Source: a virus
Virus record (IMG/VR): IMGVR_UViG_3300022745_000021
Span: 40,960 to 104,959 of that record
Reading direction: 5' to 3' (one strand)
Length of the DNA: 64,000 nucleotides
Below, in pieces: positions 37,099 through 56,665 of this stretch. Positions within the stretch are counted from its first letter, which is position 1. Each line of letters begins with the position of its first letter. A model generated the notes under the pieces. It was given only the letters and a program-made list of their open reading frames with translations. It made no database searches and was not told the origin of the DNA. Both the position numbers and the translations under genes were made by a program.

Positions 37099-37190
37099 GC
37101 GAAATGGGTGTCCCTGCACCGGGTTGCAATGGGTGTTCCGCACGTGATCCGCACGTGATCCGCACGCGATCCGCGCTGACGCAGGACAGC

Positions 37191-48706: not shown

Positions 48707-51700
48707 TTACGCGGTGAGCCTGACGTGCACCGACGCCAGCGCGTCCTCGGGCGACATGCTCGGGGTGAGCACCCACTGCGGATCACCCTCGACGAACGCC
48801 TTGAGGATCGCGTCCTCGTCGCTGTGCTGATACCACGTCGGCATCACCGAGTTGATGTCCTCGCGCTCGGCCATTTCGCCAAGGCTGGCCGGCGAGATTT
48901 CGGCGTCGGAGCCGAACGGCAGCGGCGCGGTGATCCCGAACCACTCCTCCAGCGGCGGGTTCTGCATGAACCAGCACAGGACCGGAAGCACGGCCTCCTC
49001 GTAGCCTTCCTCGATCTCCAGCACGACCTGATCGTGGACGGTGAGCACGACGCGGGCGATGTCGGGGTGGACATGCGCTTGGAAGCGGTAGGCCCCGATC
49101 AGGCACAAGTCCGACCCCACACGCTGGATCGGCGCGTTGATCGCCTGCCGCTCGGTTTCCGAAACGGTCGAGCGGTTGTCCGACTTGATGCTTGGCAGGT
49201 GGCGGGCCGCGCCAAGCAAGCCGCGCACCATGCAGTCACGGTGTACGATTTCGCGCATGACGGCATGCCACGGCTCAAGCCGGTAGCGATCGAAGTAGCG
49301 GTTGCGGATCGTCACCGCTTCCTCGCTGGTGAAGTCCACCCCGTAGTTGGTCTTGGCGTAGGTGCGGAAGGTCTCGGCCATCGCGCCGTAAACGAACCCG
49401 AACGAAACTGCCTTGGCGCGGAAGCGTTGCAGTGCGTGCAGCGACTTCAAGGTCAGCGCCGCGCGCTTCTCGGGGCTGGTCTGGTCGAACAGCTGCTTGG
49501 CGCCGGGCAGGTCGAGCACATCGCGCAGGAACACCGCGTCGGTCTTCCACGTCGCGAACTCCTCGGCGGATAGCCCCAACGACACAGCTGCCGTCGCGGC
49601 GTGAATGTCGCCATTCGCCCGGTAAATGTCGATCATGTTGGCTTCGTTTGCCATCCACGCGACCAGCCGAAGCTCGATCTGGCTCATGTCCGATGCGCCG
49701 AACACCTTGCGCGGCCCGGGGCGCATGATGCGCTGGTACGGCTTCGCCCAGCGGCCCCGCTTGGGGAAGTTCTGACCGTTCGGCTCGCGGCTGGCGGTGC
49801 GCCCGGTGTTGGTCCCGGTCAGCGTGAAGCTCGGGTGGATTTTGCTCTGGTCCGACAGGTACTGCCAGAAGCCGGTGCCGTGCTCCTGTTTGCCGACGTA
49901 GGTCGAAGACATTTTCTTCGCCTTCATGAAGTCGGTCAGGTCGAGCACGAAGTTGCCGGCCTTGGCGTCGGTGACGAAGTACGGCAGGTGGTCCTTGGTC
50001 GAGACGGAGGCCACGCGCTGGTGCGCGGGCAGCCGCGCAGTCGAGGGCGTGAACACGCTCGGCTTGAGGCCGAAGCCGTCCTTGGAGAACAGCACGTCGC
50101 GGGTGAACTCGTCGCGGGTGAACGACAGCGCCTTGGACAACGCCTCCTGTTGCTTCTTGGTGCCCACCTTCCCGGCTGCCGTCGCGGCGGCCATGTGCTT
50201 GCGGCGGACAGGCGCGGGCACGCGGCGGATCAGCGAGCGGTAGAGGTCGCGGGTATAGGTGTCCACTTCCTCGCCAAGCGCGGTCAGGCGCTCTTGGTCG
50301 ATGGTGACGCCGGCCGGTTCGGTGACCTGCGCGAACATCATCAGCGAGGGCATCTGTACCTTGTGCAGCAGCTTCCACTGCTTGGGATCGCGGCGCAGGA
50401 TGTCGCGCAGGCGCTGCGCCAGTCGGAACACCGCGTCCGGGTCGCCGCCTGCGTAGCTGCGCATGCCGTGGGTGGTGATCTTGCCCGTCTCGTCGAGGAT
50501 GTCCTCGGGCGGCACCTCGATCATGCGGTCCTTGTTGGTGGTCTGGTTGAACGCGTCGGCGTAGCCTGCCATTTCGGGCACCCACACCCGGGTGCACTCG
50601 TCGAGGTTCCGCTGGATCATGTTCTCGTCCGCTTGGAACGACATGATCTCGGTGTCCATGTACCAGCCGCGCGGTTGCAACCGGCTGCAACTGCCGTCGC
50701 CGCGCCGCACGTTGACCTTGGAGAGGATGTGGTGATCGTACTTGAGGTTGTGCCCCAGCTTCTTGATCGACCGGTCCTCCATGAGGTCGGCCAGCTGGCG
50801 GATGCCCTCCTCCATCTGCGAGAACGGCAGGCCCGGGAACACCTTCTCCCAGTAGCGCTCGTGGATCGGCAGCAGGTAGCTCTCGCCGGGCTTGACGCAC
50901 AGCTGCGCAAGGAAGCCGAACACCTCGTCGCTGTACCAGCGCAGGCCGGTGGTTTCCGTGTCGGCCGCCATCACCGTCGGGCGGTTCTCGATAAGCTCGT
51001 GCAGGTCGGGCACCCAGCGGTAGTTGGTTACCTGCTTGACCATACCCGACGACTGGAAGTCATTGGCGCGCAGCTTGGCGATCGTGCGCCAGTCCGCCTC
51101 GAACACCGGGCGATGCTCGGGGTTGCGCAGCACGAAGCCCGGCGCGAACATCGGCATCACCGGCACCGGGGCACCGCCCACGGTGACGCCCTTGGCCTGC
51201 TCGATCGCACCGCGCGACTTGGTGATCTGCACCGAGCGGCCCAGCAGCGCCCGGCTGGCAAGCTCGCCCGTGGTCACCACCAGCCGGGGCTGGCGCGCGG
51301 TGATGATCTCGCGCAGCGCCTCGACGTGGGCCTCGACGTGCGCCCACTTGCGCGCGGCGGACGTGAGCGCGATGTCGCCGATAGGCGGGGCCAGCCGGAC
51401 GAACGCGACGTCGGTAAGGTCGATCCCGGCGGCCCGGGCGGTCTCGCGCATCAGGTGCATCGCCTCGGCCGTCGCCGGCAGCCCGGCGTTCCATGCCTCC
51501 ATTGCCTTGCGGTTACTCTCGACCAGCGCGTCGCACACGACAAGCACCTTGGCCTCGGCGTTGCCCCACACGAGGTTGACGCGGTTGGGGGCCTTGGCCT
51601 GCGCCGCGACGCCGGTGATCGCGCCGACGCGCGCCGGGGTCTGGGGCGTGTCCGGGGTGTTCTGGGGGGCGGCGCTGACCGCGCGGGGGATGATCGGCAT
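48707..51700 (-). CDS. DNA polymerase I with N-terminal UDG-like domain
   Basis: 997 residues. Residues 35-215 look like a uracil-DNA-glycosylase-family domain (V-R-L-A-P-P-I-G-D; L-V-V-T-T-G-E-L-A-S; F-A-P-G-F-V-L-R-N-P). Then a 3'-5' exonuclease (A-D-T-E-T-T-G; G-H-N-L-K-Y-D; Y-A-G-G-D-P-D) and a family A polymerase: D-M-S-Q-I-E-L-R (motif A), R-x3-K-A-V-S-F-G-F-V-Y-G (motif B) and T-V-H-D-Q-V (motif C). C-S-R-L-Q-P near 355 comes from a TTGCAACCGGCTGCAA. Start ATG shares a base with the helicase stop region (TGATG). Confidence 0.93.
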   Translation of the reverse strand: MPIIPRAVSAAPQNTPDTPQTPARVGAITGVAAQAKAPNRVNLVWGNAEAKVLVVCDALVESNRKAMEAWNAGLPATAEAMHLMRETARAAGIDLTDVAFVRLAPPIGDIALTSAARKWAHVEAHVEALREIITARQPRLVVTTGELASRALLGRSVQITKSRGAIEQAKGVTVGGAPVPVMPMFAPGFVLRNPEHRPVFEADWRTIAKLRANDFQSSGMVKQVTNYRWVPDLHELIENRPTVMAADTETTGLRWYSDEVFGFLAQLCVKPGESYLLPIHERYWEKVFPGLPFSQMEEGIRQLADLMEDRSIKKLGHNLKYDHHILSKVNVRRGDGSCSRLQPRGWYMDTEIMSFQADENMIQRNLDECTRVWVPEMAGYADAFNQTTNKDRMIEVPPEDILDETGKITTHGMRSYAGGDPDAVFRLAQRLRDILRRDPKQWKLLHKVQMPSLMMFAQVTEPAGVTIDQERLTALGEEVDTYTRDLYRSLIRRVPAPVRRKHMAAATAAGKVGTKKQQEALSKALSFTRDEFTRDVLFSKDGFGLKPSVFTPSTARLPAHQRVASVSTKDHLPYFVTDAKAGNFVLDLTDFMKAKKMSSTYVGKQEHGTGFWQYLSDQSKIHPSFTLTGTNTGRTASREPNGQNFPKRGRWAKPYQRIMRPGPRKVFGASDMSQIELRLVAWMANEANMIDIYRANGDIHAATAAVSLGLSAEEFATWKTDAVFLRDVLDLPGAKQLFDQTSPEKRAALTLKSLHALQRFRAKAVSFGFVYGAMAETFRTYAKTNYGVDFTSEEAVTIRNRYFDRYRLEPWHAVMREIVHRDCMVRGLLGAARHLPSIKSDNRSTVSETERQAINAPIQRVGSDLCLIGAYRFQAHVHPDIARVVLTVHDQVVLEIEEGYEEAVLPVLCWFMQNPPLEEWFGITAPLPFGSDAEISPASLGEMAEREDINSVMPTWYQHSDEDAILKAFVEGDPQWVLTPSMSPEDALASVHVRLTA

Positions 51701-52989
51701 CAGATATTCCCCGTGAGGCGGGCCATCAGCTGTTCGTGCTCGTCCTCGCGGGGAAGCTCGCTGAAATCCATCGGGTTGAACAGGAAGTTGGTGTCGAAGT
51801 CGAACAGTTCACCGTCGCGGTTCTTGCCGCCGGTGTACTTGCGCTTGGTGCGCCGGAAGGTCGGGTCATCGACGTAGTCCACCGCGACGACGACGCTGGA
51901 GATTTGACCGATCACGTCACCGCCCGCGATCTGGTTCATGTCGAAGGCGACGCCCTCTTTCTTCTCGCGCGACAGCTGGAGCGACTGGATCACCGGCAGG
52001 TTGCGGTCCTGCGCGATGCCCTTGATCTCCTCGCCGACGTCGTAGATTTTCTCCCAGCGCGCGCCGTTGTTGCGCTGCTTCTTCTGCGAGCCGACGAGGT
52101 ACGACGCGTCGATGTAAAGCCCGTCGGGTCCGAACTCCTGCACCAGCCGGTCGATGTCGGCGGTGGTTTTCTTGAAGGACCCCGACATCAGGTGGAACGG
52201 CGGCAGGTTGCGGGCGCGCTCGACCCATTCGTGGAGGATTTCCTCGCCGTGCATGGTGATCCGGCCCCGGCGGATGTCGTCGGGGTTCATGCCGGACGCC
52301 AGCGCCAGCATACGCCGCGCCATCTGGTGGTCGGTCATTTCCATGGTGACCAGCACCACGGGGTGCCCGGCGAGCCACGCCGTGAGCGCCATGAACAGGA
52401 TCGTCCACGACTTGCCGACGTTGGGGCGGGCGACGACGGAAATCACGTCACCGGGCTGGCCGCCTGCGGTGGCCCGGTTCATGGTGTACCAGCCGAACGG
52501 GACGCCGGTAAGCTCCCCTGCCCCGTTCATGCGCAGCAAGAGCGCTTCTTCGAGCACGGTCGCCATGGCGTCGGCGAGCGGCACGGTGTCCCGGCGCCCG
52601 TCAAATTCCGACATCGCCCGGTACAGGTCGCGCACGATCTGGCGCACGCCCTCGACGTTGCGCGCGGTGATCGCGGTGTCGAGGTCGGTCATGCAGGCCG
52701 CCGCCGCCGAGTACACCGCCCGGTCGCGCAGGCGGTCGATCCAGTAGTCGAGCGGCCCCGTCGCGGTCGGCAGGTTGAAGCCGTTCTGGCGCATGATGTC
52801 CACCGACGGCAGCGAGCCGTGGCGCTGGTAGAAGCCCGACAGGAAGTCGTAGGCGGACTGCTCCTCGGGGAAGAACAGGCCCGGCGACAGCGAGCGCATG
52901 GTGGTGCGGCTGCCGGCGTCGATCACCGCGCGCAGCGCTTGCAGCGCCGTGGACGCGATCGAACTGGAGGCGGTCGGCTGGATCGTCAC
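51700..52989 (-). CDS. replicative DnaB-type helicase
   Basis: 429 residues from a GTG (GTGA overlap). A helical N-terminal domain, then the RecA-like motor: V-A-R-P-N-V-G-K-S (Walker A) near 208, V-L-V-T-M-E-M near 235, L-Y-I-D-A-S-Y and Q-L-S-R-E-K-K-E. The extra N-terminal 24 codons of the open frame are out of the coupling pattern and rejected. Confidence 0.92.
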   Translation of the reverse strand: MTIQPTASSSIASTALQALRAVIDAGSRTTMRSLSPGLFFPEEQSAYDFLSGFYQRHGSLPSVDIMRQNGFNLPTATGPLDYWIDRLRDRAVYSAAAACMTDLDTAITARNVEGVRQIVRDLYRAMSEFDGRRDTVPLADAMATVLEEALLLRMNGAGELTGVPFGWYTMNRATAGGQPGDVISVVARPNVGKSWTILFMALTAWLAGHPVVLVTMEMTDHQMARRMLALASGMNPDDIRRGRITMHGEEILHEWVERARNLPPFHLMSGSFKKTTADIDRLVQEFGPDGLYIDASYLVGSQKKQRNNGARWEKIYDVGEEIKGIAQDRNLPVIQSLQLSREKKEGVAFDMNQIAGGDVIGQISSVVVAVDYVDDPTFRRTKRKYTGGKNRDGELFDFDTNFLFNPMDFSELPREDEHEQLMARLTGNI

Positions 52990-53549
52990 TTGGCTGCGCC
53001 CTCGGTGATGCGCACCACGCGGTTGTGCTGTTCGAGGGTCTGCTCGATCAGGCCGTCCCACCAGCCCACCGGCTCGGCGGCGCGGCGGGTCACGGTGACG
53101 GCGCGGTTATCGGTCACCCGGTCTTCGATGAAGGCTTCGACCAGCGCGATCTCGTAGCTGCGCAGCGGGTTCTCGTGGCCGGTCTCGAAGTCGCGGATCA
53201 CGAGGTGGCGGATGGCGCGAAGCTCGGCTTCGTTCTCGGCGAGGAGCTTGGGCAGGCGGACCAGCGGCACGACGCGGGTGGTGAGGCCGACGAACAGCAT
53301 GGCCCGGGCGGTGAGCATGACGATCTCGGTGGCCTTGGGGGTCGCGCCCCGGAAGTCGAAGCCCAGCCCTTCATCGCGAATGCGCAGTGCGTGGTCGATG
53401 ATGAACTTCTTGAGCGCCGCGCCGGTCTCGCCCAGTTCTTCGAGGCTGCGGTTGTGGAACGACCGACCGATGCCAGCGTCGGCGAGCGCCTGAATGGCGT
53501 CCTCGCTGCGCTGTTCGCTGTGCGTGCCGACGTACCGCTGCTCGATCAC
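52986..53549 (-). CDS. DnaC-like helicase loader with degenerate P-loop (putative)
   Basis: 187 residues from a GTG. S-F-H-N-R-S-L-E-E-L and the following helix match the entry of DnaC-type loaders, and G-L-G-F-D-F-R-G-A-T-P-K-A-T-E stands where the G-x4-G-K-T loop should be. The P-loop Gly and Lys are not in order, so ATP binding is probably lost. It sits between initiator and helicase, exactly where loaders lie. Confidence 0.6.
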   Translation of the reverse strand: MIEQRYVGTHSEQRSEDAIQALADAGIGRSFHNRSLEELGETGAALKKFIIDHALRIRDEGLGFDFRGATPKATEIVMLTARAMLFVGLTTRVVPLVRLPKLLAENEAELRAIRHLVIRDFETGHENPLRSYEIALVEAFIEDRVTDNRAVTVTRRAAEPVGWWDGLIEQTLEQHNRVVRITEGAAK

Positions 53550-55174
53550 GAATTGGTTTCCCCGTTGTTGGTGGTGGCCTTGCCGAAGAAGGCGCGATCG
53601 GCGTCCGCCGCGCTCATTCCCGTCCGTGCCAGTAACTGCCTAGCAACACTTGTAGGCTTCTCCTCGCCGCGTGGCAACCCCCTTTCGGTTGCAACTGGTT
53701 GCAACGGCGCGGGGGCCACCGGGGCGGGACGGGTCCGCACCCGCGCCTTGGGTAGCCGGGCCGCTTCGCGCTCGGCGGCGGCGCGCACCTTGGCCTCGGC
53801 GACGATCTGGATCGCGTTGTCCTGACTGTAGCCCTTGGCGACCAGTTCCTCGACCTGCGACAGCGAAAGGTCATCCAGCGCCCGGGCACGGGCCTTGGTC
53901 ATGAACTCGTTGTGGAAGTGCTCGAAGAACGCGCCGAGAAACCCGATCTTGGGCAGCGTCGGCGGCGGGGTATGCAGGCCCGAGAGCTTGCCGGTCACCG
54001 GACGCCAGTTGGTCACGGCGAACGTGAGGAAGTCGCAGAACGCGCCGTTGACCTTGGGCCAGCGGGCAAACAGCGCCATGGCCTGTCCGCGCTCCTGCTT
54101 GCTCCACAGCGGCGGCCGGGTCTCGTCGCGGAAGGCGTCCGCCCATGCCACGCCCCAGACCAGTTCGAGGTCCGCGCCACGGATCACGCCGGCAATCGTG
54201 CTGGACTTCTGACCCGGCGGCAGCGGTGCGGCGCAGTTCACGCGGTTGATCGCGGATTGCAACCGGGTTGCAACTTTCTTGGCAGCGGCAGCGCGGTGCG
54301 CTTCGACGATTTCACGGACGGATGGTTCGTCGGATTTTTCAGCGCGAGCCTTGTTCAGCTGACTTTCGGCGAAAGGCATTTCGATCTGGCCTGCCCGTTC
54401 GTCTTCGGAAAACTCGTCCTCTGAAAATCCATCGTCGAACAAGGTGGCAGGCACGGCGGCAGCCGTGACCGGCGCGGCAGCGCCGTGGTGAGAAGTATCA
54501 GTGAAGGTACTAGTGTAGGTATCAGTATTATGTGGTCGCGTGGCGACCAAGGGTCGGTCGCGTGGCGACCAAGGGTCGGTCGTCTCCTGACCTAGGGTAG
54601 GTCGCGTGGCGACCACCCCTGCATTCAATCGCTTAGGGGTCGGAATGGTTGGCGGCACGGCGGTAATCTCCCACGGGGCGAGCACGAGTTCGACGTTCAC
54701 GGACAGCTTCAAGCCGATCATGCAGCCGGTTTTCTGGTCGTAGCGCAGCGTCTGGTTGACGATGCCAAGGTCCACGAGCTTGGCGAGGCACGCCTTCACG
54801 GTCGTGCGGCCGATGCCGATAGGTGGGGTGTTCCACTGCCCCTTGCCAGAGGTGCGCCCGTCCACGATCTCGCCGATCGTCGTGTCGATGTGGTCGAAGC
54901 CCCACTGTACGGTCATGTCCTGAATGCGCAGGAACACCGCCCGATCGTTCGGGTTCAGGAGCGCGCCCCATCGCCGCTCGATCGCCTGCGGGACCAAGAC
55001 TTTGATGGACACACCCCCGGGGTCCGGGGTAGCCGGGTATAGATCATCATCCGCCGGGGACATGCCTCGTCGCTTTGCCAGATGCCTTACACCGTCAAGC
55101 GGGCCTGCCACGGCCTTCTCGTCGGGACCACTGGAATCAGTGGTGCCAGTTTGGTACGATTTTACGTCTGCCAT
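53546..55174 (-). CDS. replication initiator (O-like) containing origin iterons
   Basis: 542 residues from ATG 55174 (GTG three codons earlier possible). Residues 70-150 are a winged-helix domain (S-I-K-V-L-V-P-Q-A-I-E; G-I-G-R-T-T-V-K-A-C-L-A-K). A low-complexity linker around 190-220 is encoded by the iterons at 54534-54614. The C-terminal part is helical and includes K-A-R-V-R-T-R-P-A-P ... L-Q-P-V-A-T. By analogy with lambda O it should bind the iterons in its own gene and recruit the loader and helicase next door. Confidence 0.8.
   Translation of the reverse strand: MADVKSYQTGTTDSSGPDEKAVAGPLDGVRHLAKRRGMSPADDDLYPATPDPGGVSIKVLVPQAIERRWGALLNPNDRAVFLRIQDMTVQWGFDHIDTTIGEIVDGRTSGKGQWNTPPIGIGRTTVKACLAKLVDLGIVNQTLRYDQKTGCMIGLKLSVNVELVLAPWEITAVPPTIPTPKRLNAGVVATRPTLGQETTDPWSPRDRPLVATRPHNTDTYTSTFTDTSHHGAAAPVTAAAVPATLFDDGFSEDEFSEDERAGQIEMPFAESQLNKARAEKSDEPSVREIVEAHRAAAAKKVATRLQSAINRVNCAAPLPPGQKSSTIAGVIRGADLELVWGVAWADAFRDETRPPLWSKQERGQAMALFARWPKVNGAFCDFLTFAVTNWRPVTGKLSGLHTPPPTLPKIGFLGAFFEHFHNEFMTKARARALDDLSLSQVEELVAKGYSQDNAIQIVAEAKVRAAAEREAARLPKARVRTRPAPVAPAPLQPVATERGLPRGEEKPTSVARQLLARTGMSAADADRAFFGKATTNNGETNS
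53689..53705. repeat. GGTTGCAACTGGTTGCAAC palindrome inside a gene
   Basis: In-gene copy encoding L-Q-P-V-A-T in the initiator. Confidence 0.65.
54257..54273. repeat. TTGCAACCGGGTTGCAAC palindrome inside a gene
   Basis: Second in-gene copy in the initiator, about 570 bp from the first. Confidence 0.65.
54488..54530. other. AT-rich stretch beside iterons
   Basis: Clearly lower in GC than its surroundings (codes T-D-T-Y-T-S-T-F-T-D-T). A candidate unwinding element next to the iterons. Confidence 0.5.
54534..54614. repeat. four origin-like iterons, 22-bp period
   Basis: The 15-base palindrome GGTCGCGTGGCGACC is found at 54534, 54556 and 54600. A degenerate copy (GGTCG...TGACC) lies at 54578, so all four start exactly 22 bases apart. 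Confidence 0.85.
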
Positions 55175-55185
55175 GTCCAGCACTT

Positions 55186-55194
55186 ATCAACAGG
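55186..55194 (+). promoter_or_regulatory. possible DnaA-box-like 9-mer
   Basis: TTATCAACA, one base from the consensus TTATCCACA, just upstream of the initiator start. A single 9-mer is weak evidence. Confidence 0.3.
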
Positions 55195-55240
55195 TTTATG
55201 CGCAGGCCGCCTTGACCTGCGCTTGGGATTTTCGAGGTGC

Positions 55241-55543
55241 CTACACGTGTTCGGGCGGCCCCAAAGCACGGTGCTGCGCACACGTGTGATCCCGGTCGGT
55301 GCGCCGGTGCTTGGGCATCAGCTGGCATATCCCTGACCGGTTCCACTTGGCGGTGCGTTCGCGCACGATCGCGTTGTGGAGCAGCTGCGCCTCGGAATAC
55401 TTGTCGCAGGTGAAGCCAAGGAAGCCCCTCACCCGCTCCTGCACAAGTTCAGGCGGCAGGGGCGCGTCCTCGCCCTCGGGAGCACAGGGTTTCCAGCACT
55501 GGCAGCTGGCGCACGTCCAGCCGGTCGGGTCAGCGCCGGCCAT
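55241..55543 (-). CDS. Cys-rich zinc-binding hypothetical protein
   Basis: 100 residues. W-T-C-A-S-C-Q-C-W then C-A-P near 20, C-D-K near 47, C-Q-L near 73, and H/C at the end. Enough cysteines for two zinc sites. TGATG overlap upstream. It precedes the initiator gene. No family. Confidence 0.65.
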   Translation of the reverse strand: MAGADPTGWTCASCQCWKPCAPEGEDAPLPPELVQERVRGFLGFTCDKYSEAQLLHNAIVRERTAKWNRSGICQLMPKHRRTDRDHTCAQHRALGPPEHV

Positions 55544-56218: not shown

Positions 56219-56665
56219 TTAGGCGACGCGCACTTCGAGTTGCACGTTGCCGTGCTCGTCGAAGTAGTCCCGCTCGATCATGTAGCCCTGCGCGGTGGCG
56301 GCGTTGATCGCGGCGAAGCGGGCGTACTGCTGCCCGAACTGGCCGATGGCCCACAGCGCGCGCTCCTCGGCCGTCTTGGGGACCGGGCAGCTGGCGCCGA
56401 CCGCGCGGGCAACGGTGCCGCCGTACTCGTCGGTGATGACGTTGTAGGTGCCGTCCGCCTGCTTGACGAGGCCGACGTCGTAGTTGGCGTTTTCGAGCTT
56501 GAGCACGAAATCGCACATCACTTCCTGCTGGCGGTAGTACATGCGCGGCTTGGTGTTCTCCGCGAGGGAAATCTTGACCCCCTTGCTCTGGAGTTCGGCG
56601 ACCGCGCGGCGGATCGCGCCGACGTCCTTGATGGCAAGTCCGCGAATAGTTGTAGTGTGGCTCAC
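56219..56665 (-). CDS. DUF1257 (Ycf35-like) protein
   Basis: 148 residues. Y-D-V-G-L-V and a Y-A-R-F-A-A-I-N-A-A-T motif near 110 (A-x-x-x-A-x-x-x-G), preceded by D-F-V-L-K-L-E-N-A-N, as in the DUF1257/Ycf35 family (a chloroplast and cyanobacterial family also found in phages). Own promoter at 56697-56725. Precise role unknown. Confidence 0.8.
   Translation of the reverse strand: MSHTTTIRGLAIKDVGAIRRAVAELQSKGVKISLAENTKPRMYYRQQEVMCDFVLKLENANYDVGLVKQADGTYNVITDEYGGTVARAVGASCPVPKTAEERALWAIGQFGQQYARFAAINAATAQGYMIERDYFDEHGNVQLEVRVA

Follow-up and report, generated by a model that had tools for sequence, protein, structure and literature searches.

The replication operon and its iteron array

The window analysed here, a stretch of 64,000 nucleotides, comprises positions 40960-104959 of the 104,959-bp record of a bacterial virus (IMG/VR record IMGVR_UViG_3300022745_000021); the last 60 bases of the record recur near its own start, so that a complete, circular assembly is likely. 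On the minus strand of the window, genes for a replication initiator, a helicase loader, a replicative helicase and a family A DNA polymerase follow one another in a single operon, and the initiator gene contains an array of palindromic iterons adjoined by an AT-rich stretch (Table 1).

Table 1. Features of the replication operon and of the iteron array, in window positions
Feature	Positions	Strand	Remarks
Family A DNA polymerase (PolA)	48707..51700	minus	PF00476, E 1.1e-49
DnaB-type replicative helicase	51700..52989	minus	PF03796, E 8.9e-23; GTG at 52989 likely start, ORF open to 53061
Helicase loader	52986..53549	minus	DnaC/IstB fold without Walker A; Foldseek match to E. coli DnaC
Replication initiator gene, 542 aa	53546..55174	minus	Winged helix-turn-helix (wHTH), disordered linker, helical C-terminal part
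Linker coding region (residues ~169-280)	54335..54670	minus	Disordered, pLDDT below 50; holds iterons and AT-rich stretch
AT-rich stretch, proposed DNA unwinding element	54488..54533	none	28/45 A+T; AT excess at this place in 25/25 loci
Iteron, perfect palindrome GGTCGCGTGGCGACC	54534..54548	none	Adjoins AT-rich stretch
Iteron, identical copy	54556..54570	none	22 bp further
Degenerate iteron GGTCGTCTCCTGACC	54578..54592	none	Outer GGTC/GACC retained
Iteron, identical copy	54600..54614	none	First in gene direction
Winged-helix coding region (residues ~57-169), proposed iteron-binding domain	54668..55006	minus	pLDDT mostly 84-96

The initiator gene starts with the ATG at 55174, a GTG 9 bp further upstream also being possible. 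In the structure model, a winged helix (residues ~57-169) is followed by disorder up to residue ~280 and then by a helical part, that is, an O-like layout of N-terminal wHTH domain, disordered linker and C-terminal, putative interaction part. Mapped onto the protein by position, the iterons correspond to residues ~187-214 and the AT-rich stretch to residues ~214-229, both within the disorder, and the array starts at 0.37 of the length of the ORF. The window protein has no Pfam match at E<=0.01 and no PHROG match at E<=0.001, and its pairwise alignment with lambda O, taken alone, is very weak. Foldseek with the whole model returned weak wHTH neighbours from the PDB (the DnaD N-domain and MarR/SlyA, E above 0.05), none of them at E<=0.001. 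Among 21 relatives, however, 8 match phrog_678 ('replication initiation O-like'), 2 match HTH_36 and 2 match Phage_rep_O (PF04492), which the window protein itself does not match. In an iterative profile search of the collected loci, the window initiator joins 40-odd syntenic proteins, with E-values that apply to this small set, and its assignment to the family is based on such iterative profiles within the collected set.

The loader, modelled at a pLDDT of 89, finds its best Foldseek match in E. coli DnaC of the DnaBC structure (6qel; E 1e-6, TMq 0.71), and IstB is matched by 2 of 17 members of its family. The Walker A motif GxxGxGK[ST] is absent from the window loader; the homologues at loci L048 and L049 retain it as GPAGSGKT. 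Judging from these motifs, ATP binding may have been lost within one loader family. Residues 94-202 of the polymerase, ahead of the exonuclease domain, give a sub-threshold match to the uracil-DNA glycosylase superfamily. Near the operon, at 56219-56665, lies a gene for a DUF1257 protein; Rhizobium phage RHph_I4 carries DUF1257 and DUF2997 genes at the equivalent place.

The iterons are built of 6-bp arms (GGTCGC and GCGACC) around the 3-nt centre GTG and are spaced by 22, 22 and 22 bp. The tandem repeat reported by TRF at 54534-54615 (period 22, 3.7 copies) has the highest score of the window, and the pattern GGTCGC-N3-GCGACC is confined to the array when the whole 104,959-bp record is searched. 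An unbiased census of perfect palindromes with 6-bp arms in the record brought out two families, the iteron cluster and a dispersed palindrome described below, of which the iterons are the sole clustered one. As a test against chance, the synonymous codons of the ORF were shuffled, with protein and codon usage kept: the best-pair palindrome score of the array was reached in 1 of 1000 shuffles, and the four-register pairing of the iterons, 22 of 24, lies above all values from 300 shuffles, whose mean was 14.6 and whose highest was 18. An explanation of the array as a terminator was rejected.

The segment 54488-54532 contains 28 A+T in 45 positions (62%), as against 34% A+T for the genome (~66% GC), a content equalled or exceeded in 83 of 104,914 such segments of the record. 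When non-overlapping 45-mers are ranked by AT content, the one in joint third place overlaps this segment. Within this segment, three GTATCAGTG-like units follow one another with a 12-bp period (54495, 54507 and 54519). The repeat (54495-54527) reads GTATCAGTG, GTACTAGTG, GTATCAGTA, is translated as TDTYTSTFTDTS, and may serve the melting element as a strand-specific motif.

An earlier note on this DNA had described a 15-base palindrome with an exact 22-bp period (54534, 54556, a degenerate copy at 54578, and 54600) beside an AT-rich stretch, and both the coordinates and TRF agree, as does the rank of 54488-54532 among the 45-mers of the record. Its placement of the site in a linker read in frame as unstructured is borne out by the low pLDDT of that segment, and its identification of the host gene as an initiator by the winged-helix model and by the matches of the relatives to O-like and Phage_rep_O families; the loader and helicase genes that it placed after the initiator are recovered as a DnaC fold by Foldseek and as DnaB_C by Pfam.

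Conservation of the layout upstream of DnaB

Scans of IMG/VR with single proteins, the window initiator and the window helicase, returned nothing, scans with the initiators of Vibrio phage SIO-2 and of SM1 no further family members, and a scan with an initiator profile only Rhizobium phage L338C. A DnaB profile scan yielded 79 IMG/VR loci, to which 7 annotated phage loci were added. The Rhizobium phages L338C and RHph_I4 are annotated with the same gene order, and dozens of IMG/VR contigs share it. Across 5.5 kb upstream of DnaB, the spacing of near-identical palindrome pairs peaks at 21-24 bp, with 28 entries upstream compared with 2 downstream and 1 in shuffles. In a stricter test (2.4 kb upstream of DnaB, redundancy removed, per-locus null, z>=3, spacing 20-25 bp), paired palindromes were detected in 27 of 63 non-redundant upstream regions and in 1 of 70 downstream controls; spacing ranges other than 20-25 bp let 1-6 of the 63 upstream regions pass. 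Among the about 36 non-redundant loci that fail, some reflect the limits of detection, some may lack such an origin, and some carry repeats of another form where the array would be, such as those of Summit, SIO-2, L015, L032 and L067 described below.

The letters of the palindromes vary from phage to phage, and the period of 21-24 bp is kept. The arms are GGACAC/GTGTCC in Aeromonas phage HJ05, TGGTAG/CTACCA at locus L013, CGGACA/TGTCCG at L060 and GTCCGG/CCGGAC at L037, and the array palindrome of Pseudomonas phage PA_L9 is CCAAAATTTGG. Wherever the called initiator ORF contains the array, the array starts at 0.28-0.46 of its length. Clear arrays are present at 25 non-redundant loci, the window among them. 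At these loci, the 45 bp that follow the array in gene direction have a mean AT excess of +0.196 (SE 0.016), and the value is positive at each of the 25; the remaining bins between -270 and +270 stay within about 0.04. Since the search for arrays made no use of AT content, this excess constitutes independent support. Altogether, some two dozen viruses that are distantly related have the same layout, spelled in other letters.

Several loci depart from this layout. At L031 (1513-1570) and L044 (4037-4118), where the initiators are short (about 300-320 aa), an array with an AT-rich 3' side is non-coding and precedes the initiator ORF, so that the origin need not sit in the gene, a point in favour of the repeats being DNA elements. 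The palindromes found at L015 (4589), L017 (178) and L067 (4634) at the usual place in the operon lie 35 bp apart, and those at L032 (4615) 33 bp apart; in Stenotrophomonas phage Summit the repeats are direct ones of 23 bp that lack strong palindromes. SIO-2, which falls near the cut of the strict test, also has repeats at this place.

Comparison with known origins

Lambda ori, located in gene O, and the origins of Stx lambdoid phages share with the window array imperfect palindromic iterons, intragenic position, an AT-rich 3' side and a loader gene that comes next; both are published precedents for an intragenic origin, and in lambda the minimal unwinding unit consists of two iterons and the AT-rich region (PMC7466680). 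When lambda was taken through the same steps as a control, its iterons (annotated spacing 20-24 bp) were found ~0.39 into O, with an AT excess of +0.23 in the bin after the array and a smaller rise of +0.12 before it. The loader of the window phage has a DnaC fold, and the phage differs from lambda in bringing its own DnaB and PolA; moreover, the iteron sequences are unrelated, and the window protein does not reach Phage_rep_O. The likeness to lambda ori drawn in the earlier note is upheld by the AT-rich side, which is the same in both, and the lambda-like architecture that it proposed by the recurrence of the layout, in different sequences, upstream of DnaB in many phages.

By published description, phage SPP1, with its genes for initiator, loader and phage DnaB (gp38-gp39-gp40), is similar as well: its oriL lies within gene 38 and combines direct repeats, to which gp38 binds, with an adjoining AT-rich unwinding element (PMC6316719). 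SPP1 differs in possessing a second origin, oriR. The RepA_N initiators of staphylococcal plasmids and of Vibrio PLE are wHTH proteins that bind semi-palindromic direct repeats (PMC7145576), but the PLE iterons are non-coding and of another size, and no such DnaB/PolA operon is reported with them. The Rhizobium phages vB_RleS_L338C and RHph_I4 share the operon order and a homologous initiator (24-27% identity over parts). The linker of L338C has GGGACATTGTGTCCC at the equivalent place, but this phage differs in that one full palindrome was found and the paired-palindrome test failed.

A putative origin inside the initiator gene

Like lambda, the 105-kb virus appears to begin DNA replication within the gene that encodes its own initiator. 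We consider it very probable that the array is the theta-replication origin of the phage, organised in the manner of lambda ori and SPP1 oriL, and the comparative evidence, drawn from sequences, makes this a strong case. The kind of origin is a known one; the group of phages that carries it is large and little-studied.

Three other explanations, all less likely, have to be weighed against an origin. The array might be an operator through which the initiator or another regulator controls the replication operon by an intragenic roadblock, with no melting of an origin. Paired palindromes with 3-nt centres indeed resemble the operators of dimeric proteins, wHTH proteins are often repressors, and in two loci the array is upstream of the ORF. 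An operator nevertheless appears improbable, given that a promoter scan around the array (54200-55400) returned no promoter-like site, that in most loci the array begins well inside the gene, at the fractions given above, and that an operator has no need for an AT-rich stretch on a fixed side, yet this stretch is there in 25 of 25 loci. We regard as slightly less probable still that the segment binds the initiator as a secondary site, involved in pausing, switching or packaging in the manner of SPP1 oriR, with the main origin elsewhere. The absence of other such palindrome clusters from the genome speaks against a secondary site, as does the place in the initiator gene, which is the same as for lambda ori and SPP1 oriL; in its favour are the precedent of SPP1, where oriL and oriR are both bound by gp38 and late switching occurs at one of them (PMC6316719), and the GC skew, which has no inflection at the array, follows the single coding strand and so lends the array no support as an origin.

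The least credible of the three, to which we attach hardly any weight, is a coding or RNA feature, either a repeat that arose by slippage where the linker tolerates it or hairpins of the messenger RNA. In its favour, the linker is disordered and tolerant, and GGUCGC and GCGACC would pair in RNA. However, a period of 22 bp does not divide into whole codons, which puts successive copies in different reading frames and leaves no repeated peptide to account for the array; together with the failure of synonymous shuffles to yield the array, this removes a peptide repeat as the explanation. Furthermore, period and place are kept across phages as the letters change, and in two loci the arrays are non-coding. 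An Rfam search gave no match.

If the array is the origin, initiator dimers would bind the four palindromic iterons through the N-terminal winged helix, and the 22-bp period would stack them on one face of the DNA. The position and composition of the adjoining 46-bp AT-rich stretch suggest that it would be melted by this complex, and gene order and fold suggest that the DnaC-like loader would then bring the phage DnaB to the opened strand, and that the phage polymerase would extend. The letters of the origin would at the same time be read in frame as an unstructured linker that tolerates them. Because these letters lie inside the initiator gene, the initiator and its target are inherited together.

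Beyond the window phage, the balance tips modestly toward a broader proposal, namely, that phages with an operon of initiator, DnaC-like loader and DnaB, a large and diverse group, carry their origin as a self-contained cassette, in which a winged-helix domain is followed directly by its own sites and a melting element. The sequence of the sites would be free and the geometry (spacing of 21-24 bp, AT-rich 3' side, place in the gene) fixed, with the origin having left the gene in the branch with short initiators. To our knowledge, phage origins are rarely known outside a few models. Under this proposal, origins would become predictable in many unstudied phages by a rule that uses sequence only: paired palindromes with a spacing of 21-24 bp, followed by ~45 AT-rich bases, roughly one third of the way into the gene that precedes the loader and DnaB. 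Such phages would also form a natural series in which the specificity of protein for DNA changed many times while the architecture remained constant.

Dispersed palindrome and other repeats

The second palindrome family of the census, TGCAACNNGTTGCA, is separate from the iterons. It has 28 copies in the record, where ~0.003 are expected, and its positions in the window include 5204, 8533, 53690, 57484, 59291 and 59301; a control pattern of the same letters read backwards has 0. The palindrome also occurs at L005 (8072 and 14341), L006 and L007, with 47 copies in L338C and 16 in HJ05, and is absent (0 copies) from SIO-2 and from the records of L013 and L052. Of 17 copies in the annotated stretches examined, 12 are intergenic, although intergenic DNA makes up only 8-11% of those stretches; L005 and L006 are close relatives, so that not all copies are independent. 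Several copies stand ~12 nt before TTGACA, some lie in terminator-like stems, and inside the initiator gene TGCAACNNGTTGCA translates as QPVA in three phages. A phage protein probably binds this palindrome throughout the genome. Elsewhere in the window, at 37133-37174, an 11-bp tandem repeat, GTGATCCGCAC, is present in 3.8 copies.
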